Source of the DNA: Muribaculaceae bacterium
Lineage (GTDB): Bacteria > Bacillota > Clostridia > Lachnospirales > Lachnospiraceae
Direction: 5' to 3'
DNA: 37,618 nt
Assembly (NCBI GenBank): GCA_023663465.1
Contig: JAMPHJ010000018.1
Span: forward strand, 1 to 37,618
Part shown: one piece after another, positions 2,121-8,106 of the stretch
How the letters are laid out: every line of letters begins with the position of its first letter
Numbering within the stretch: position 1 is the first letter of the stretch
Translations under genes and position numbers: made by a program
Notes under the pieces: model-generated
What the model was told of the DNA's origin: nothing
The model's database searches: none
What the model saw: the letters and a program-made list of their open reading frames with translations, nothing else

Positions 2121-3116
2121 TTATTGACACCTCTTTGCTACAATCGCAAACCGCCCGTCGTCCACATGATAGGCGCAGGTAGAAAGCGTCAGGAAGGTAT
2201 CCCCAAATTCCGCCGTCACTCCTGTATCATATAAGGAAAGCGCTTTGATGTTCTCGTAAAAATAGTCAAATTCCTCTTCCGTATCCGCCTCATAAAACTG
2301 ATAGTACTTAAATACATCATCATCCGAATTGTAAATTTGAGAACGGAATACCGATATAATCTCGTAAGTACGTTCCTCATACAGCGTATCAAAGGAAATC
2401 ATGGAATGACCCGGATAAAAGCTCTCATCCAGGTACAAATCCAAATCGCCAAACATGGCTCCATCCCGCATGTTATGCCCATATATGATAAAATTGAAGC
2501 CGTTATTGATATCGGCTCTGCCCCTTACATACAGACACCCATACCTATCTTCGTTTTTATCAAAATCGTGATGCAGATAATACTCGTCATCCTCACACTG
2601 CATGACGGGATAATCGATGACCATCCCTTCTATGAATAGCCATGCCGCCAAATCACTGTTTTCTTCATAAAGTTTTTCAAAGCGTTCCAACATAACCGGT
2701 TCTTCCGGCTGCCCGGAACCTGCGGATAATAACGCTGCCATATCCGATTCCACATCGCCTGGCGATATTTCCTCTTTCAAGGGCTCCACGCCTTTTGCTA
2801 TCACGTCTTCTTCTGCTGCAAGGACTGCTTTCAGACGTTCCTGCTTCTTCCTATGCTCTATGGATAGATAACATTCCCGCAGGGCAAGGAACAGAAAAAA
2901 CGTCATGGACATAAGAAGCGCCGCTTTTAAAAGCCGATACCCTTTTTTATGCCGGGCAGACTTTCTTCTTTTCGCCGTCATATGTCTGCCAATACCATGA
3001 TAGTACGCAAGCAGCAAAATGAGTGCGGCAAACGCAGACAGTCTGCGGAGCTTTCCGCCCTGTTTCGCCCAGCCGGTTATACGGAAACATAATTCTTCTT
3101 TTTTCTTTTCCGTCAT
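2121..3116 (-). CDS. srtB: Class B sortase with two N-terminal membrane segments
   Basis: This transpeptidase probably anchors PxTG-type proteins to peptidoglycan at the outer membrane face. The 331-residue protein has hydrophobic segments at about residues 27-43 and 64-83, then an extracellular catalytic domain. Sortase B features include the IDYPVMQ block, the catalytic His in NFIIYGHNMRDGAMFGDL (about 215), the Cys in TLSTCAYH (about 313) and the downstream Arg in RFAIVAKR. It is longer than most SrtB proteins because of the extra membrane segment. That N-terminus (first 43 residues) is a near copy of the C-terminal tail of the surface protein encoded just upstream (31 of 43 identical). 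The gene follows the surface protein gene by 38 bases, which fits a dedicated sortase/substrate pair. The ribosome binding site is weak. Confidence 0.93.
   Translation of the reverse strand: MTEKKKEELCFRITGWAKQGGKLRRLSAFAALILLLAYYHGIGRHMTAKRRKSARHKKGYRLLKAALLMSMTFFLFLALRECYLSIEHRKKQERLKAVLAAEEDVIAKGVEPLKEEISPGDVESDMAALLSAGSGQPEEPVMLERFEKLYEENSDLAAWLFIEGMVIDYPVMQCEDDEYYLHHDFDKNEDRYGCLYVRGRADINNGFNFIIYGHNMRDGAMFGDLDLYLDESFYPGHSMISFDTLYEERTYEIISVFRSQIYNSDDDVFKYYQFYEADTEEEFDYFYENIKALSLYDTGVTAEFGDTFLTLSTCAYHVDDGRFAIVAKRCQ
2988..3116 (-). repeat. Duplicated segment, copy A (5' end of the sortase gene)
   Basis: It encodes sortase residues 1-43 (MTEKKKEEL ... YYHGIG). Copy B at 3197-3325 encodes the matching tail of the surface protein. 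Similarity is clear at DNA level too, with shared blocks such as CTGCGGAGCTT and GCCCAGCCG on the plus strand. Confidence 0.85.
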
Positions 3117-3196
3117 TCTGCATCCGCCCGCTTTTCTAAAATATTCATCGTTATTTATTCCTCATAAATCTGTAACCATTCCATCCTTACCTGTTT

Positions 3197-3325
3197 CCCG
3201 ATACTGTGATAATAGACCAGAAGCAGGACAAGTGCGGCAAGCGCAGGTATCCTGCGGAGCTTCCTGCCCTGTTTTGCCCAGCCGATTATGCGGGCAACCA
3301 GCTCGTTCTTCTTTTCTTCCGTCAT
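3197..3325 (-). repeat. Duplicated segment, copy B (3' end of the surface protein gene)
   Basis: It encodes MTEEKKNEL ... YYHSIG, 43 residues of which 31 are identical to sortase residues 1-43, including the GWAKQG and AALxLLLxYYH blocks. It is fused in frame directly after the sorting-signal hydrophobic segment and GRHG. A further 13 unrelated residues follow before the stop. Confidence 0.85.
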
Positions 3326-6300
3326 TCCATGTCTGCCCGCAAACAGGAGCATCAGATAAGAGGCGCCCTCGATAAAAGCAATTGTTGCATACAGCTCAAA
3401 ATGCATGGGCTGACCGGTTCTTGGCTCGGAGTCCTTCTGACTTTGGGAAACCACTTTCATCTGAATCGGATGGATGTCCGTATCATCGTCCACTACCTGC
3501 TCCGGGTAGTTTTCGACCTGCCTGTCTGCATATACAAGCGCATAGGTAGAAAACCTATCCGTATCTATGGTAATCGTACTGTCATCCGAATCCATATCCT
3601 GTAAAATAACGGCATTCCCATTATGTACCCTGATGATTGCAAACTTTCTGGGCGTCTGGGTATTGCTTTTCCTGAATTTCTTGGGCACTTCAATGGTCAG
3701 TCTTATCTTGTCGTCTGTCTCCCTAATCTGAATCCTGTCTGCATTCATTTCCTTATACAGATTCACATCAAAATACTGCCCTGATTTATAAGATGCTATC
3801 TTGGAAGCAACAGCCACTTTATCGGCGTCGCTGACTGTATTGTCCGCATCCTCTACGGTAAGGACAATCTCGATATCCACTCCATTTCCTACCGCATGCA
3901 TATCTTCCTCTTCCAATGCCGCCAATGCCAGCGCGGGCAGCCTCATGGAAATTACTGTCTGGGGCGCATTTTTACCGCATTCTTCGCGTTTGGTTATTTT
4001 CCCGCGTTTGATTGATTCCGTTTCACTATAACCACAGACAATGCAGGAACGATGTCTAGCGCCATCTTTCGTTTCCGTTGCATCCTCATCCGTTTCCCAC
4101 TCCCCGAATTCATGAAAATCACTATCCATCTTCGTATTGCAGACAGCACATTCATGCCAATGCTCAATGGGATTGATACACCACTCATCCTTCATGCTAT
4201 GCCCATTTGCAGGAATGACTTCCCGCTCTGTCGCACCGCAGGTTAAGCAGTATCTGGTCTTATAGCCTTCCGTGATGCAGTCCACGTCCTGCTCTATCGT
4301 ATATTCACTCCATACATGGGTATGACCAGTATCCGCAGTTCTCTTCAAATCAAAATAGGCATATCCATGTACAGTAGATTCGTAAGAAGAACCTATAATC
4401 GTCTGTCTCACAGTATAGCGTCCCCCAGACCATTGCGATGCATCTTCCCCCACAAGGAAGGATGGGACAGCGCTATCAGAGGCCGACATTTCAATCAGAT
4501 AAACCGAACCGTTGGGTTTGATAATCTCATACTTTACCTTATAACCGTCCTTACTCTCATAATAGTACGCAATATCGTCTATGATTTCAATCCGGTAACC
4601 TCCCCCGGTAAGGGAATCTTCCGATAATGTCCTGACCTGCCCGCCATCTGCTGCAGATTTCAGCCAGATATTGCCCACTGCCTGTTTCGGGTCTGCGTTG
4701 GTAAGCCCTTCTTCATTTTCATCCGACTGTAGTTTGTGCTGCAGATAGGTGGTAGATTGTTGCCCGATATAGGCAGCAATCGCCGCTGCAAGTTCATTCA
4801 CATCCAGAAGCCCCTCGTTTTTCATCTCGTATAGATTAGAACCTGCCACACCGCTTTTCCCAAGGTATGGCGCAAACAGCGTTTCCCTGTCCGTAATCAG
4901 CGCAACGCCTTCCACCTGCATCAGTTTCAGATACTCCTGATACAGCCCCGTCTCAACGCCTTCATTATTATAGTCCTTGTCAGATGTGCCAAAAAGATTC
5001 AGAAAATACTTCTGCGTTCCTTCCTGCGTATAATCAGCCATCTCTAACGGCTGGAGCATATTTTCATTTCCCTGCGTAGGATTCGTATAATACATGTGTA
5101 AATTAGAATAGGTAAAGCTGCTGGCTCTGGCACAATTGTGGCCAGAAGTTGTATACGCCACCAACGGACCAAAACCGTTATAACCGCTGTCTTCCACGTC
5201 CACAGACAGATATCGTGATTCCTCTCCACTAAAATCCGTAGTCCCATCCTTCGGCTTTTGCCAGATTTCGATTTTTTTGGGCGAAACTTTAATCTGGACG
5301 CTCATCTCCTTGTCCCATTTTTCAAAAAAATTGCTGCCATATGCACTCTGTAACTCAATTGTTCCCAGCTTGCCTAGTGCCGACTTTAAATCCCAGGTTC
5401 CACCATGTAGTTGCTCGACATCAATTCCGCCCTCTTCGTCGTCAACTCCATCTAACTTATAAATATACAGATTAGTAGGATTAGCCCCAGGGGTAGTAGA
5501 AGAACTTCCATAATAATAAAAAATGAGATAACCGTACAACCTGCCAGCTTCCACACCAGCATTTACTAAAAATCCGGTTCCCGCCAGTGCATGGGAAATT
5601 ACATTGGTAGAATCGATATCATAGTTTACTACCTTTTCGCCATTCGATTGTGGATTATAATACATAAAATCTACATATGCCGGGTCGCCATATCCCACAA
5701 ATGTCATATCCGTACTTCCTGCCGGATTATAAATATGCTCCCGAAACTGGGCTAAACTTTTTACCCCAAGATACAGATAATCCTCTCTATCCAGCCACTC
5801 GGCAATTGTATAAACCGCTTCTCCGGTATGTTGAGAATAGTACGTTTCCGTACATGAATAATACTTTCTCCTCGGATTGTTCCCATATACATTAAACCAG
5901 TTTTGCGGTATTTCACTATCAGGTACCTTTTCACTTCCCCAGCAGCCTTCCGCCGTATCATAGTGGTCATACACATACCAATCACGCAAATCTGTCGTAT
6001 CTACCTGTGCTCTTTTCGGTATTACCGAATATCCATAGGCAGACTCAAGTTTATTCGTAAGCGCTTCCAGAAACTCATCACTATACCCGCTTTCCTCGGC
6101 AGCGCTGATATAAATCTCGACCTTATCATCATGCCTGTCCAACTCATTATCCGTTGTTGACTCTAATTGCATCAATTCCGGTTCTCCCTCGGAATCTTCC
6201 ATCTGCTCCTGCATACAAATCAGGATTGCCTCTCTGCAGAAATAGAATCCATCCCTTTCTATGTCGATAGAGGAATCATAATAGATGGTACTTCCATTGG

Positions 6301-7465
6301 AAGCATATAAATCCGCTCCATAGCCGGAACCTTCCGCCACGCTGTTTTCCTGAATGACGTCCGCATAGAGATAAAGCAGCGCGCCATCCGCCAGATAAAC
6401 GCCGCCTCCGAACTCGTCCGCAAAATTCCCGGTAACCAGCGCATTTTCCGTTACCCTCAGTTCGCCGTATACCTGTATGCCGCCCCCAAAGTCACTGACT
6501 ATCACTTCCACTTTCCCGTCTGCATCGTAACGATAAGTACCGTAGTTTTTATTATTCTTGATGAACGCTCCTTCTCCCAAAATCAGACTGCCATGGTCAA
6601 TGATTGCCGGAGCGCCCGCACGGTTCCCGGAAGTCTGCCCATCCACACAGATATCACGAAGCATCAGCGTTCCGTAATGCTCCTTGGTATAATCCTCACC
6701 GCCCAGAGAAAGCATGGTTCCCAGAAAAGCGCCGTCTTCCCCCGTTCCTCTCTTCAAGGAAAAGCCGTTTCCATCCAGTACCGTATTCGCAGACATCGGC
6801 ACAGTCAACGTAGAAGTCAAGGAAATATCCGCCGCCAAGGTAATCTCAGACTCCCCCGCTAAAAGGGCGGCTTCCAGTTCCTCCTGCGTATCGATAATGC
6901 CGTCGCCCACCTTTTTCTGTTCTTCTTCAAAGCTCACCGTAATAACCGGAATGTCATCCGCCTCGTAAGCATAAGCGGCTTCATCCCATCCTGGCAGGAA
7001 ACGATAGCTTTCTAACTCCGTATTATCATAGTCCTCATCGCATTCCCAGCTTACAGGCACTTCCAGCTCCTGCAAAGCAGTTTCCGCTGTTTCCTTTTCT
7101 TCCGTATGCAAATAAGCCTGTGCATACGCCTTTAGCAGCGCGGGCATCTTTAGAGTCACTTCCGCTAGTGTCCCTTTTTCCTCCAATATCATATGGGAAT
7201 CTGTCTCTGCAAGCGGCTCGAAACTGGAAAGAATGATTGCACCGTCAGGCGTCCTGACAAACTGAAACTCTTCCGTAGTTTCCGTCTCTTCTGGATTTTC
7301 GTCTTCCTTATCCTCTTCCTCTTTTTCATCCTCGTCGTCAGAATCTCCTGACTCTTTCGGGGTTTCGTCTTCCTCTTTATCAGGCTCTTCCCCGTTATCT
7401 ATATCGCCCGAATTATCCGTTTCTCCATTATTGGTATTCCCTAAGTTTCCTGTATCCCCTGAGCC

Positions 7466-7720
7466 TTCTCCGTCTTCCTTATCTTCCGGGTTTTCTGTAT
7501 TTCCTGAGTCTTCCCCACCTTCCTTATCCTCTGGGTTTCCCTCATTTCCTGAGCCTTCTCCGTCTTCCTTATCCTCCGAGGTTCCCGGATTTCCTGAACC
7601 TTATCCATTTCCCTTATCTTCTGGGCTTTCTGTATTTCCTGAACCTTCTCCATCTTCCTTATCCTCTGGGGTTCCCGGATTTCCCGAACCTTCCCCGCCT
7701 TCCTTATTCTCAGGGTTTTC
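7466..7720 (-). repeat. 45-bp tandem repeat encoding a 15-residue acidic stalk
   Basis: Successive units read GSGNPGTPEDKEDGE, GSGNTESPEDKGNG(stop), GSGNPGTSEDKEDGE, GSGNEGNPEDKEGGE and DSGNTENPEDKEDGE, flanked by partial units. The second unit contains the premature TAA at the position where the others have GAA. Such repeats are prone to slippage and copy-number change. Confidence 0.85.
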
Positions 7721-8106
7721 CATGCCCCCTTCGCCTCCATTAAATTCAGCGGAAGTATCCCCAGTCTGTCCTTCTTCTGTAATCCTCTCTGTATTTTCCC
7801 ATACTGCCCCGCTTCCCACAGCCGTCTCTTTCGCCTGTACCTGAGCACAATCAATAGAGGTGAACAGCAAAACAACACTCAGAAAGACAGCCAGATAAGA
7901 CTTTGCATTCATCTTCCGCCCTTTTTTAACATTCTTAGTATTGATATCCTTGACATTTCTCTGTAAATCCATCGTTTCATCCCCTACCCATTACCTATCA
8001 TTACAATACTATGGTAATCATATCATATCTTGCAAAATGTTTCCATTAATCTTTATCTAACCAGCACGGAAGCACGGAAAATACACAGAAAACGAAAAGA
8101 AACCAT

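Follow-up and report, generated by a model that had tools for sequence, protein, structure and literature searches.

A C-terminal module of EPxTG surface proteins that appears to have been captured once by the neighbouring class B sortase in Lachnospiraceae

Introduction

Class B sortases possess a single N-terminal signal anchor. Their presumed substrates belong to the proteins with a cell wall sorting signal, which in its canonical form is described in the excerpted text of PMC5569036 as an LPXTG-type motif followed by a hydrophobic domain and a short positively charged tail. For both sortases and LPxTG proteins, a focal localisation signature consisting of a charged domain beside a transmembrane (TM) helix is described in the excerpt of PMC3516528. 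In the case of Mediterraneibacter gnavus, a member of Lachnospiraceae, the available part of PMC13121745 reports several class B sortases (SrtBs), most of which group in a clade of their own, with candidate substrates encoded in the vicinity.

At the locus described here, the start of a class B sortase resembles the end of the surface protein encoded directly upstream. According to the original prediction made for this DNA, no described sortase system was known to have such an arrangement; none turned up in the open-licence PMC literature.

Results

The window, i.e., the whole stretch of 37,618 nt that was analysed (positions 1 to 37,618 of JAMPHJ010000018.1, assembly GCA_023663465.1), comes from the draft genome of a Muribaculaceae bacterium assigned to Lachnospiraceae by GTDB (3.15 Mb, 182 contigs, 86% complete). 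A large surface protein gene on the minus strand, ending at 3155, is followed by a class B sortase CDS at 2121-3116. The features of this region are as follows (the basis of each assignment is given in brackets).

2121..3116, minus strand: class B sortase CDS, 331 aa, with N-terminal extension (PF04203 and TIGR03064 scores)
2862..2939, minus strand: the sortase's own membrane helix, residues 60-85, near which SrtBs without the extension begin (alignment with 19 non-extended SrtBs)
2940..2981, minus strand: very basic loop, sortase residues 46-59, between the copied helix and the own membrane helix (charge, conservation)
2982..3116, minus strand: N-terminal extension of the sortase, residues 1-45, apparent copy of the tail module (31/45 residues identical to the window tail)
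3113..3148, minus strand: mini-ORF of 11 codons, its TGA overlapping the sortase ATG in ATGA (ORF reading)
3155..3325, minus strand: conserved tail module MTEEKK...YYHSIGK, a helical basic segment and a second hydrophobic helix (sequence comparison)
3338..3391, minus strand: first hydrophobic helix of the sorting signal (low-confidence model, helix 7-32, and alignment)
3413..3427, minus strand: EPRTG sorting motif (sequence; 58-tail alignment)
3155..7192, minus strand: surface protein ORF 3' of an in-frame stop, ending in the sorting signal and tail (sequence)

The sortase begins with MTEKKKEELCFRITGWAKQGGKLRRLSAFAALILLLAYYHGIG, and the surface protein ends with EPRTG, a hydrophobic stretch, GRHG, and MTEEKKNELVARIIGWAKQGRKLRRIPALAALVLLLVYYHSIGKQVRMEWLQIYEE (stop codon at 3155-3157, minus strand). 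The predicted resemblance of these two ends was confirmed: 31 of 43 residues are identical in an ungapped alignment, the BLOSUM62 score of which is 161, far above that obtained in 1000 shuffles (26.8 +/- 5.1, maximum 58) with the first 90 residues of the sortase set against the last 140 residues of the surface protein. At the DNA level, the two copies (about 2983-3131 on the sortase side and about 3192-3340 on the tail side) are identical in 112 of 153 columns (73%, blastn E 1e-21), and the match starts 15 bases 5' of the sortase ATG. The 45 codon pairs of extension and tail comprise 16 identical ones, 15 with silent differences, and 14 with residue changes, which indicates an old duplication.

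The window surface protein has a signal-like start, recognised by eye, at 7972. Its frame is then interrupted by an in-frame TAA (7601-7603, minus strand; codon 124 from the ATG at 7972) within an acidic repeat, which may be a real nonsense change or a draft error. In L116 (Acetatifactor sp. MAG), the relative of this protein has a signal-like start and one uninterrupted frame of 1533 codons; positions 8600-12213 of L116 are partly masked in the stored record and give X in the translation.

The sequence EPRTG followed by a hydrophobic helix identifies a sorting signal of the PxTG type in the window protein. A short charged C-terminal end is absent; in its place, the sequence continues for about 50 conserved residues containing a second hydrophobic helix. 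These residues include a C-terminal module of about 45 residues (MTEEKK..WAKxGG..YYHSIGK), which follows the EPxTG motif and the first helix in 59 counted tails from 34 genomes of one family, Lachnospiraceae. Fifty-eight of these tails are complete from the motif; the count includes L081, truncated before the motif, and the divergent L046, and outside it are the partial pieces in L080, L083:1673, and L127, the four tails of G751 and G760, and G434. A PxT sorting motif precedes all of the 59 tails but the truncated one of L081. Across the 58 aligned tails, the motif positions P2 and T4 do not vary and E1 is nearly invariant; the other nearly invariant residues include A14, T15, G21, Y24, M35, W50, A62, Y72, Y73, H74, G77, and K78.

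With a single query and a threshold of E <= 0.001, the module was detected in 12 of the 397 family genomes searched. With a profile, 27 of the 77 genomes from the genus gave matches, as did 12 of the 397 from the family, which belong to 9 of 334 genera; the matches are weak or divergent in a few genomes (G404, G434, G208). Hits in the order sample (7/392) and in the class sample (3/391) all fell within the same family, f1 (Lachnospiraceae). The original prediction regarded the tail of the substrate as a fused copy of the sortase start; its occurrence as a C-terminal module of many EPxTG proteins (27/77 genomes in the genus and 12/397 in the family) does not support this. The accompanying statement that sorting signals normally end before such a tail is correct for the textbook signal but not here, as the longer form is usual in these proteins.

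Among the 18 tails scanned, none of the curated families in two general libraries (Pfam and NCBIfam) clearly matched the module. Pfam hits were single-member ones only (best E 0.0013), and those of NCBIfam were to TIGR03063, the SrtB sorting domain, in nine tails (best E 1.8e-6), to LPXTG_double in five (E 0.0054), to LPXTG_anchor in four (E 0.022), and to weaker families. TIGR03063, which we take to be a short model of the motif and helix, has no match in the window tail at E 1. The best E value of a PDB sequence search with the tails was 0.0092. A structure model of the tail, of low confidence (pLDDT 67, pTM 0.43), comprises three helices (7-32, 37-53, and 56-89). The MTEEKK segment has an amphipathicity of 0.32 vs. 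0.243 +/- 0.016 for shuffled sequences; no weight was given to this excess, because the shuffle ignores relatedness.

A divergent tail subtype with GISEDKKNE or GISEEKKNE and without YYHSIGK is encoded beside divergent SrtBs (L046:3716-8140 and L126:5891-10198). Truncated tail remnants are present at L080:7330-7515, L081:6677-6997, and L127:5928-6044, the latter two directly before plain SrtB genes.

The window sortase matches PF04203 over residues 161-329 with 40.1 bits (cut-off 26.6), while its TIGR03064 score of 143.9 bits (E 4.7e-42) is just under the cut-off of 153.75. Residues H214, C314, and R322, presumably the catalytic His, Cys, and Arg of class B sortases, are invariant across 23 aligned SrtBs. 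An additional hydrophobic segment ahead of the usual anchor is present in the four extended SrtBs of this set and absent in the other 19. The net charge between the two hydrophobic helices of the extended sortases is +7 to +9 (+9 for residues 43-61 of the window sortase).

The positions of start codons suggest that the extension is probably a real part of the protein. No in-frame ATG, GTG, or TTG is present upstream of M1 of the window sortase, and, besides M1, no start codon preceding the own TM helix is common to all four extended sortases. The codon of M46 is ATA or CTT in the relatives. An internal start at the non-conserved M46, with the extension untranslated, was on these grounds ruled out. 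In G447, an extra in-frame ATG five codons before M1 corresponds to the ATG of the ATGA overlap seen at the sortase ATG of the three other extended loci (window, G403, and L116). The overlapping TGA belongs to a short ORF in the window and G403, and in L116 to the surface protein itself, the final residues of which differ there (GRQGIQSMNLLRNQAGAE; L116:5720-6001).

A phage or plasmid origin was considered and rejected. The tail had no match in the phage search, and the extension had no relative among viral contigs. The whole sortase as a query gave 26 plasmid records, all of less than 60% identity, and sortase residues 1-45 were uncovered in the 5 plasmid matches listed of these 26.

An SrtB gene is located downstream and on the same strand for 20 of the 59 tails, in 19 cases abutting or overlapping by frame and in L094 at a distance of 837 bases. 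Four further tails have an SrtB gene otherwise placed within 5 kb, and for 35 none was found in the fetched stretch; the SrtB of L108, being upstream of the tail, is not among the 20. Only four of these 20 SrtBs begin with the module, so that the proposed search for tails matching the N-terminus of the linked sortase was successful for these four and negative for the remaining 16. The extended sortases are those of the window, G447, G403, and L116, the last having the same sequence as G731 and being placed in another genus than the window. This small set represents four species of two genera, with the same gene order at all four loci and with sortase genes 75-91% identical pairwise in DNA (91% for G447 and L116). 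A one-off accident limited to a single strain, or a helix common in unrelated proteins, had been named as findings that would speak against the pairing of enzyme and substrate; the arrangement occurs in four species, and the module either follows a PxT motif (58 of 59 tails) or is found as an N-terminal copy on these four sortases, being otherwise C-terminal on surface proteins.

A tree built from 27 sortase domains, 26 of them different, separates the four extended sortases from the rest by a branch with support 99/98. On this tree, the extension requires one change (0/500 shuffles as low), and L039 is the closest relative that lacks the module (82/82). Since 16 of the 20 downstream SrtBs lack the module and the four extended ones fall in one clade, the comparison supports a single addition of a tail copy to the sortase, which would have occurred in the ancestor of one SrtB clade and then been retained. 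At non-extended loci, e.g., L036 and L081, the SrtB start overlaps the final codons of the tail, and therefore the genes were already abutting. In the simplest history, a surface protein with the tail stood beside a plain SrtB, and one duplication placed a tail segment into the sortase start. The predicted duplication across the gene junction, giving enzyme and substrate the same helix, thus gained support from four species, while its direction was probably the opposite one, from the surface-protein tail onto the sortase.

Judged by position, the extension likely derives from the linked surface-protein gene. Among the 58 tails, the own tail ranks first for the window extension, second for that of G403, 13th for G447, and 25th for L116; three of the four extensions have their best match in the window tail, and for the fourth (G403) the own tail is second. 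As the presence of SrtB is uninformative (75/77 genomes), SrtB counts were used: at least two SrtB matches were found in 27/27 tail-bearing genomes vs. 25/50 others (p 1.4e-6, uncorrected for relatedness or completeness).

Between the window, G447, and G403, protein identity is 76-78% in the extension, 21-50% in the loop, 54-69% in the own helix, 40-68% in the linker, and 85-90% in the catalytic domain. Compared with the window, 34-35 of the 45 extension residues are identical in G447 and G403 and 37 in L116, and the basic loop retains 3-7 of 14 residues between species. In the three species, dN is 0.12-0.14 for the extension, 0.19-0.37 for the own helix, and 0.20-0.43 for the linker; dN/dS is 0.17-0.40 for the extension, 0.20-0.62 for the own helix, 0.05-0.07 for the catalytic domain, and 0.23 and 0.32 for the linker in the two pairs where dS was computable. 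The dN/dS values of the window-G447 pair are 0.19 (extension), 0.20 (own TM), and 0.23 (linker). That of the extension is not clearly below the other two, because its dS, calculated from only 45 codons, is also low (0.70 vs. 1.82 for the own TM and 1.57 for the linker). The higher identity of the extension goes partly with this lower dS.

The extensions share 32-38 of 45 residues with one another, the linked tails 31-39, and an extension and a tail 23-31. Eighteen residues are common to all eight sequences (four extensions and four linked tails), and six (K4, C10, T14, A37, G41, and H45) are fixed in the four extensions and differ from the four linked tails. K4 and C10 are found in 0/58 tails; sortase residue 10 (window 3087-3089) is Cys in 4/4 extensions. 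Sites shared by tail and extension within their own genome only number 3 in the window, 3 in G403, and 0 in G447, vs. 9 paralogue-fixed sites, which gives only weak hints that tail and extension underwent gene conversion, a process with which the low dS of the extension could also be compatible.

Discussion

Results of our analysis point to a module of surface-protein tails that appears to have been captured once by the sortase and kept, and not to a piece of sortase on a surface protein. As to its function, the explanation that we favour, and to which we give nearly an even chance, is that the tail module is an element of membrane retention or placement which, when copied onto one SrtB clade, sends the sortase to the place of its substrates. 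The SrtB substrates would end in an extended sorting signal composed of EPxTG, a hydrophobic helix, and the conserved module of about 45 residues, and this module would place them in a specific membrane environment or complex. A copy of it would have landed, in the ancestor of one SrtB clade, at the start of the downstream sortase gene and become its first 45 codons; by sending the sortase to the same membrane place, it would co-localise the enzyme and substrates. Cleavage between T and G would leave the tail in the membrane, as a remnant of about 85 residues.

The catalytic domain must face outwards, and the stretch linking the two hydrophobic helices of the extended sortases is strongly basic; this stretch should therefore be inside, which means that the copied helix cannot simply cross the membrane from inside to outside. 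Probably, it lies in the membrane without crossing, as a re-entrant or interfacial helix; alternatively, it would be inserted in reverse. A non-crossing placement may also apply to the tail in the substrates. It is possible, although more doubtful, that the tail is a transferable membrane targeting domain defining a private sortase-substrate compartment, and that one sortase lineage captured this domain N-terminally, with a non-crossing helix. Most tails are encoded beside plain SrtBs or where no SrtB was found, and hence the extension is not required and can be seen as an embellishment.

Direct pre-docking, in which the extension would bind the substrate tail helix to helix in the membrane and so pair enzyme and substrate, seems somewhat unlikely. 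The homology of extension and tail, with the 18 residues common to the eight sequences of the four loci, and the identical gene order of these loci are consistent with it. However, the lack of the extension in 16 of the 20 downstream SrtBs indicates that pre-docking is not a general requirement, the own tail is not the closest one at three of the four loci (ranks 1, 2, 13, and 25 of 58), and a covariation test would need more than four pairs.

We consider it unlikely that the extension is a passenger, i.e., a fusion accident that supplied a start codon and a spare membrane anchor and was kept because it is harmless. The location of the duplicated sequence exactly at the gene junction would fit such an accident, as would the closeness of the window-G447 dN/dS of the extension to that of the own TM and linker; the truncated tails before the SrtBs of L081 and L127 indicate that rearrangements happen at this junction. 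On the other hand, the extension has a higher protein identity and a lower dN than the own TM and linker, its dN/dS is well below 1, and it has been kept in two genera with fixed residues specific to this paralogue.

Still less probable is a pseudo-substrate or regulatory function, with the extension occupying a site, in the sortase or a partner, that normally meets the substrate tail and thereby tuning activity. Many conserved positions of the tail are kept in the extension next to fixed residues of its own, such as the K4 and C10 seen in 0/58 tails, but the extension possesses neither the PxTG motif nor the first helix of the sorting signal.

That the tail is what remains of a second sortase gene, as the original prediction also proposed, is highly improbable and was rejected: it draws on local resemblance only, while the module belongs to surface-protein C-termini, where it is widespread, often away from any SrtB found, and in the 27-row tree only one clade of SrtBs possesses it. 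An assembly artefact of a single genome, conceivable for a draft of 182 contigs, was dismissed as practically negligible, since the same arrangement occurs in three further assemblies and pairs of the four sortase genes show 75-91% DNA identity.

The pentapeptide motif only partly explains the choice of substrate in cells with several sortases, and a conserved module beyond this motif marks a set of probable SrtB substrates. By placing the substrate module onto one enzyme lineage, evolution has carried out a natural experiment; as extended and non-extended sortases occur in similar two-gene arrangements, the effect of this tag is directly testable. If the proposed function is true, the enzyme and its substrates share one homologous targeting element, which is C-terminal on the substrates and N-terminal on the sortase.

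Among the described systems, the SrtB group of Mediterraneibacter gnavus is similar in its host family, in the presence of several SrtBs, and in the sorting-signal proteins encoded nearby; it differs in that the excerpt of PMC13121745 mentions neither a tail module nor a sortase extension. The window sortase has the sortase domain and the conserved His, Cys, and Arg of class B sortases as defined by TIGR03064, but its additional N-terminal module of 45 residues sets it apart, and its score is just under the cut-off. In the case of the sortase B protein-sorting domain (TIGR03063, srtB_target), nine of the 18 tails match and the window tail does not. The canonical sorting signal, as given in the excerpted source, and the signals described here have in common the motif (EPxTG here), the hydrophobic helix, and basic residues thereafter, whereas the tails of Lachnospiraceae run about 50 conserved residues further and contain a second hydrophobic helix. 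The focal localisation signature, the source work of which is probably that of Kline et al. 2009, resembles our case, in the part of its description available, in that the enzyme and substrates share a kind of basic element flanking the membrane. The difference is that a charge signature is shared there, while here it is a homologous module copied between two genes.
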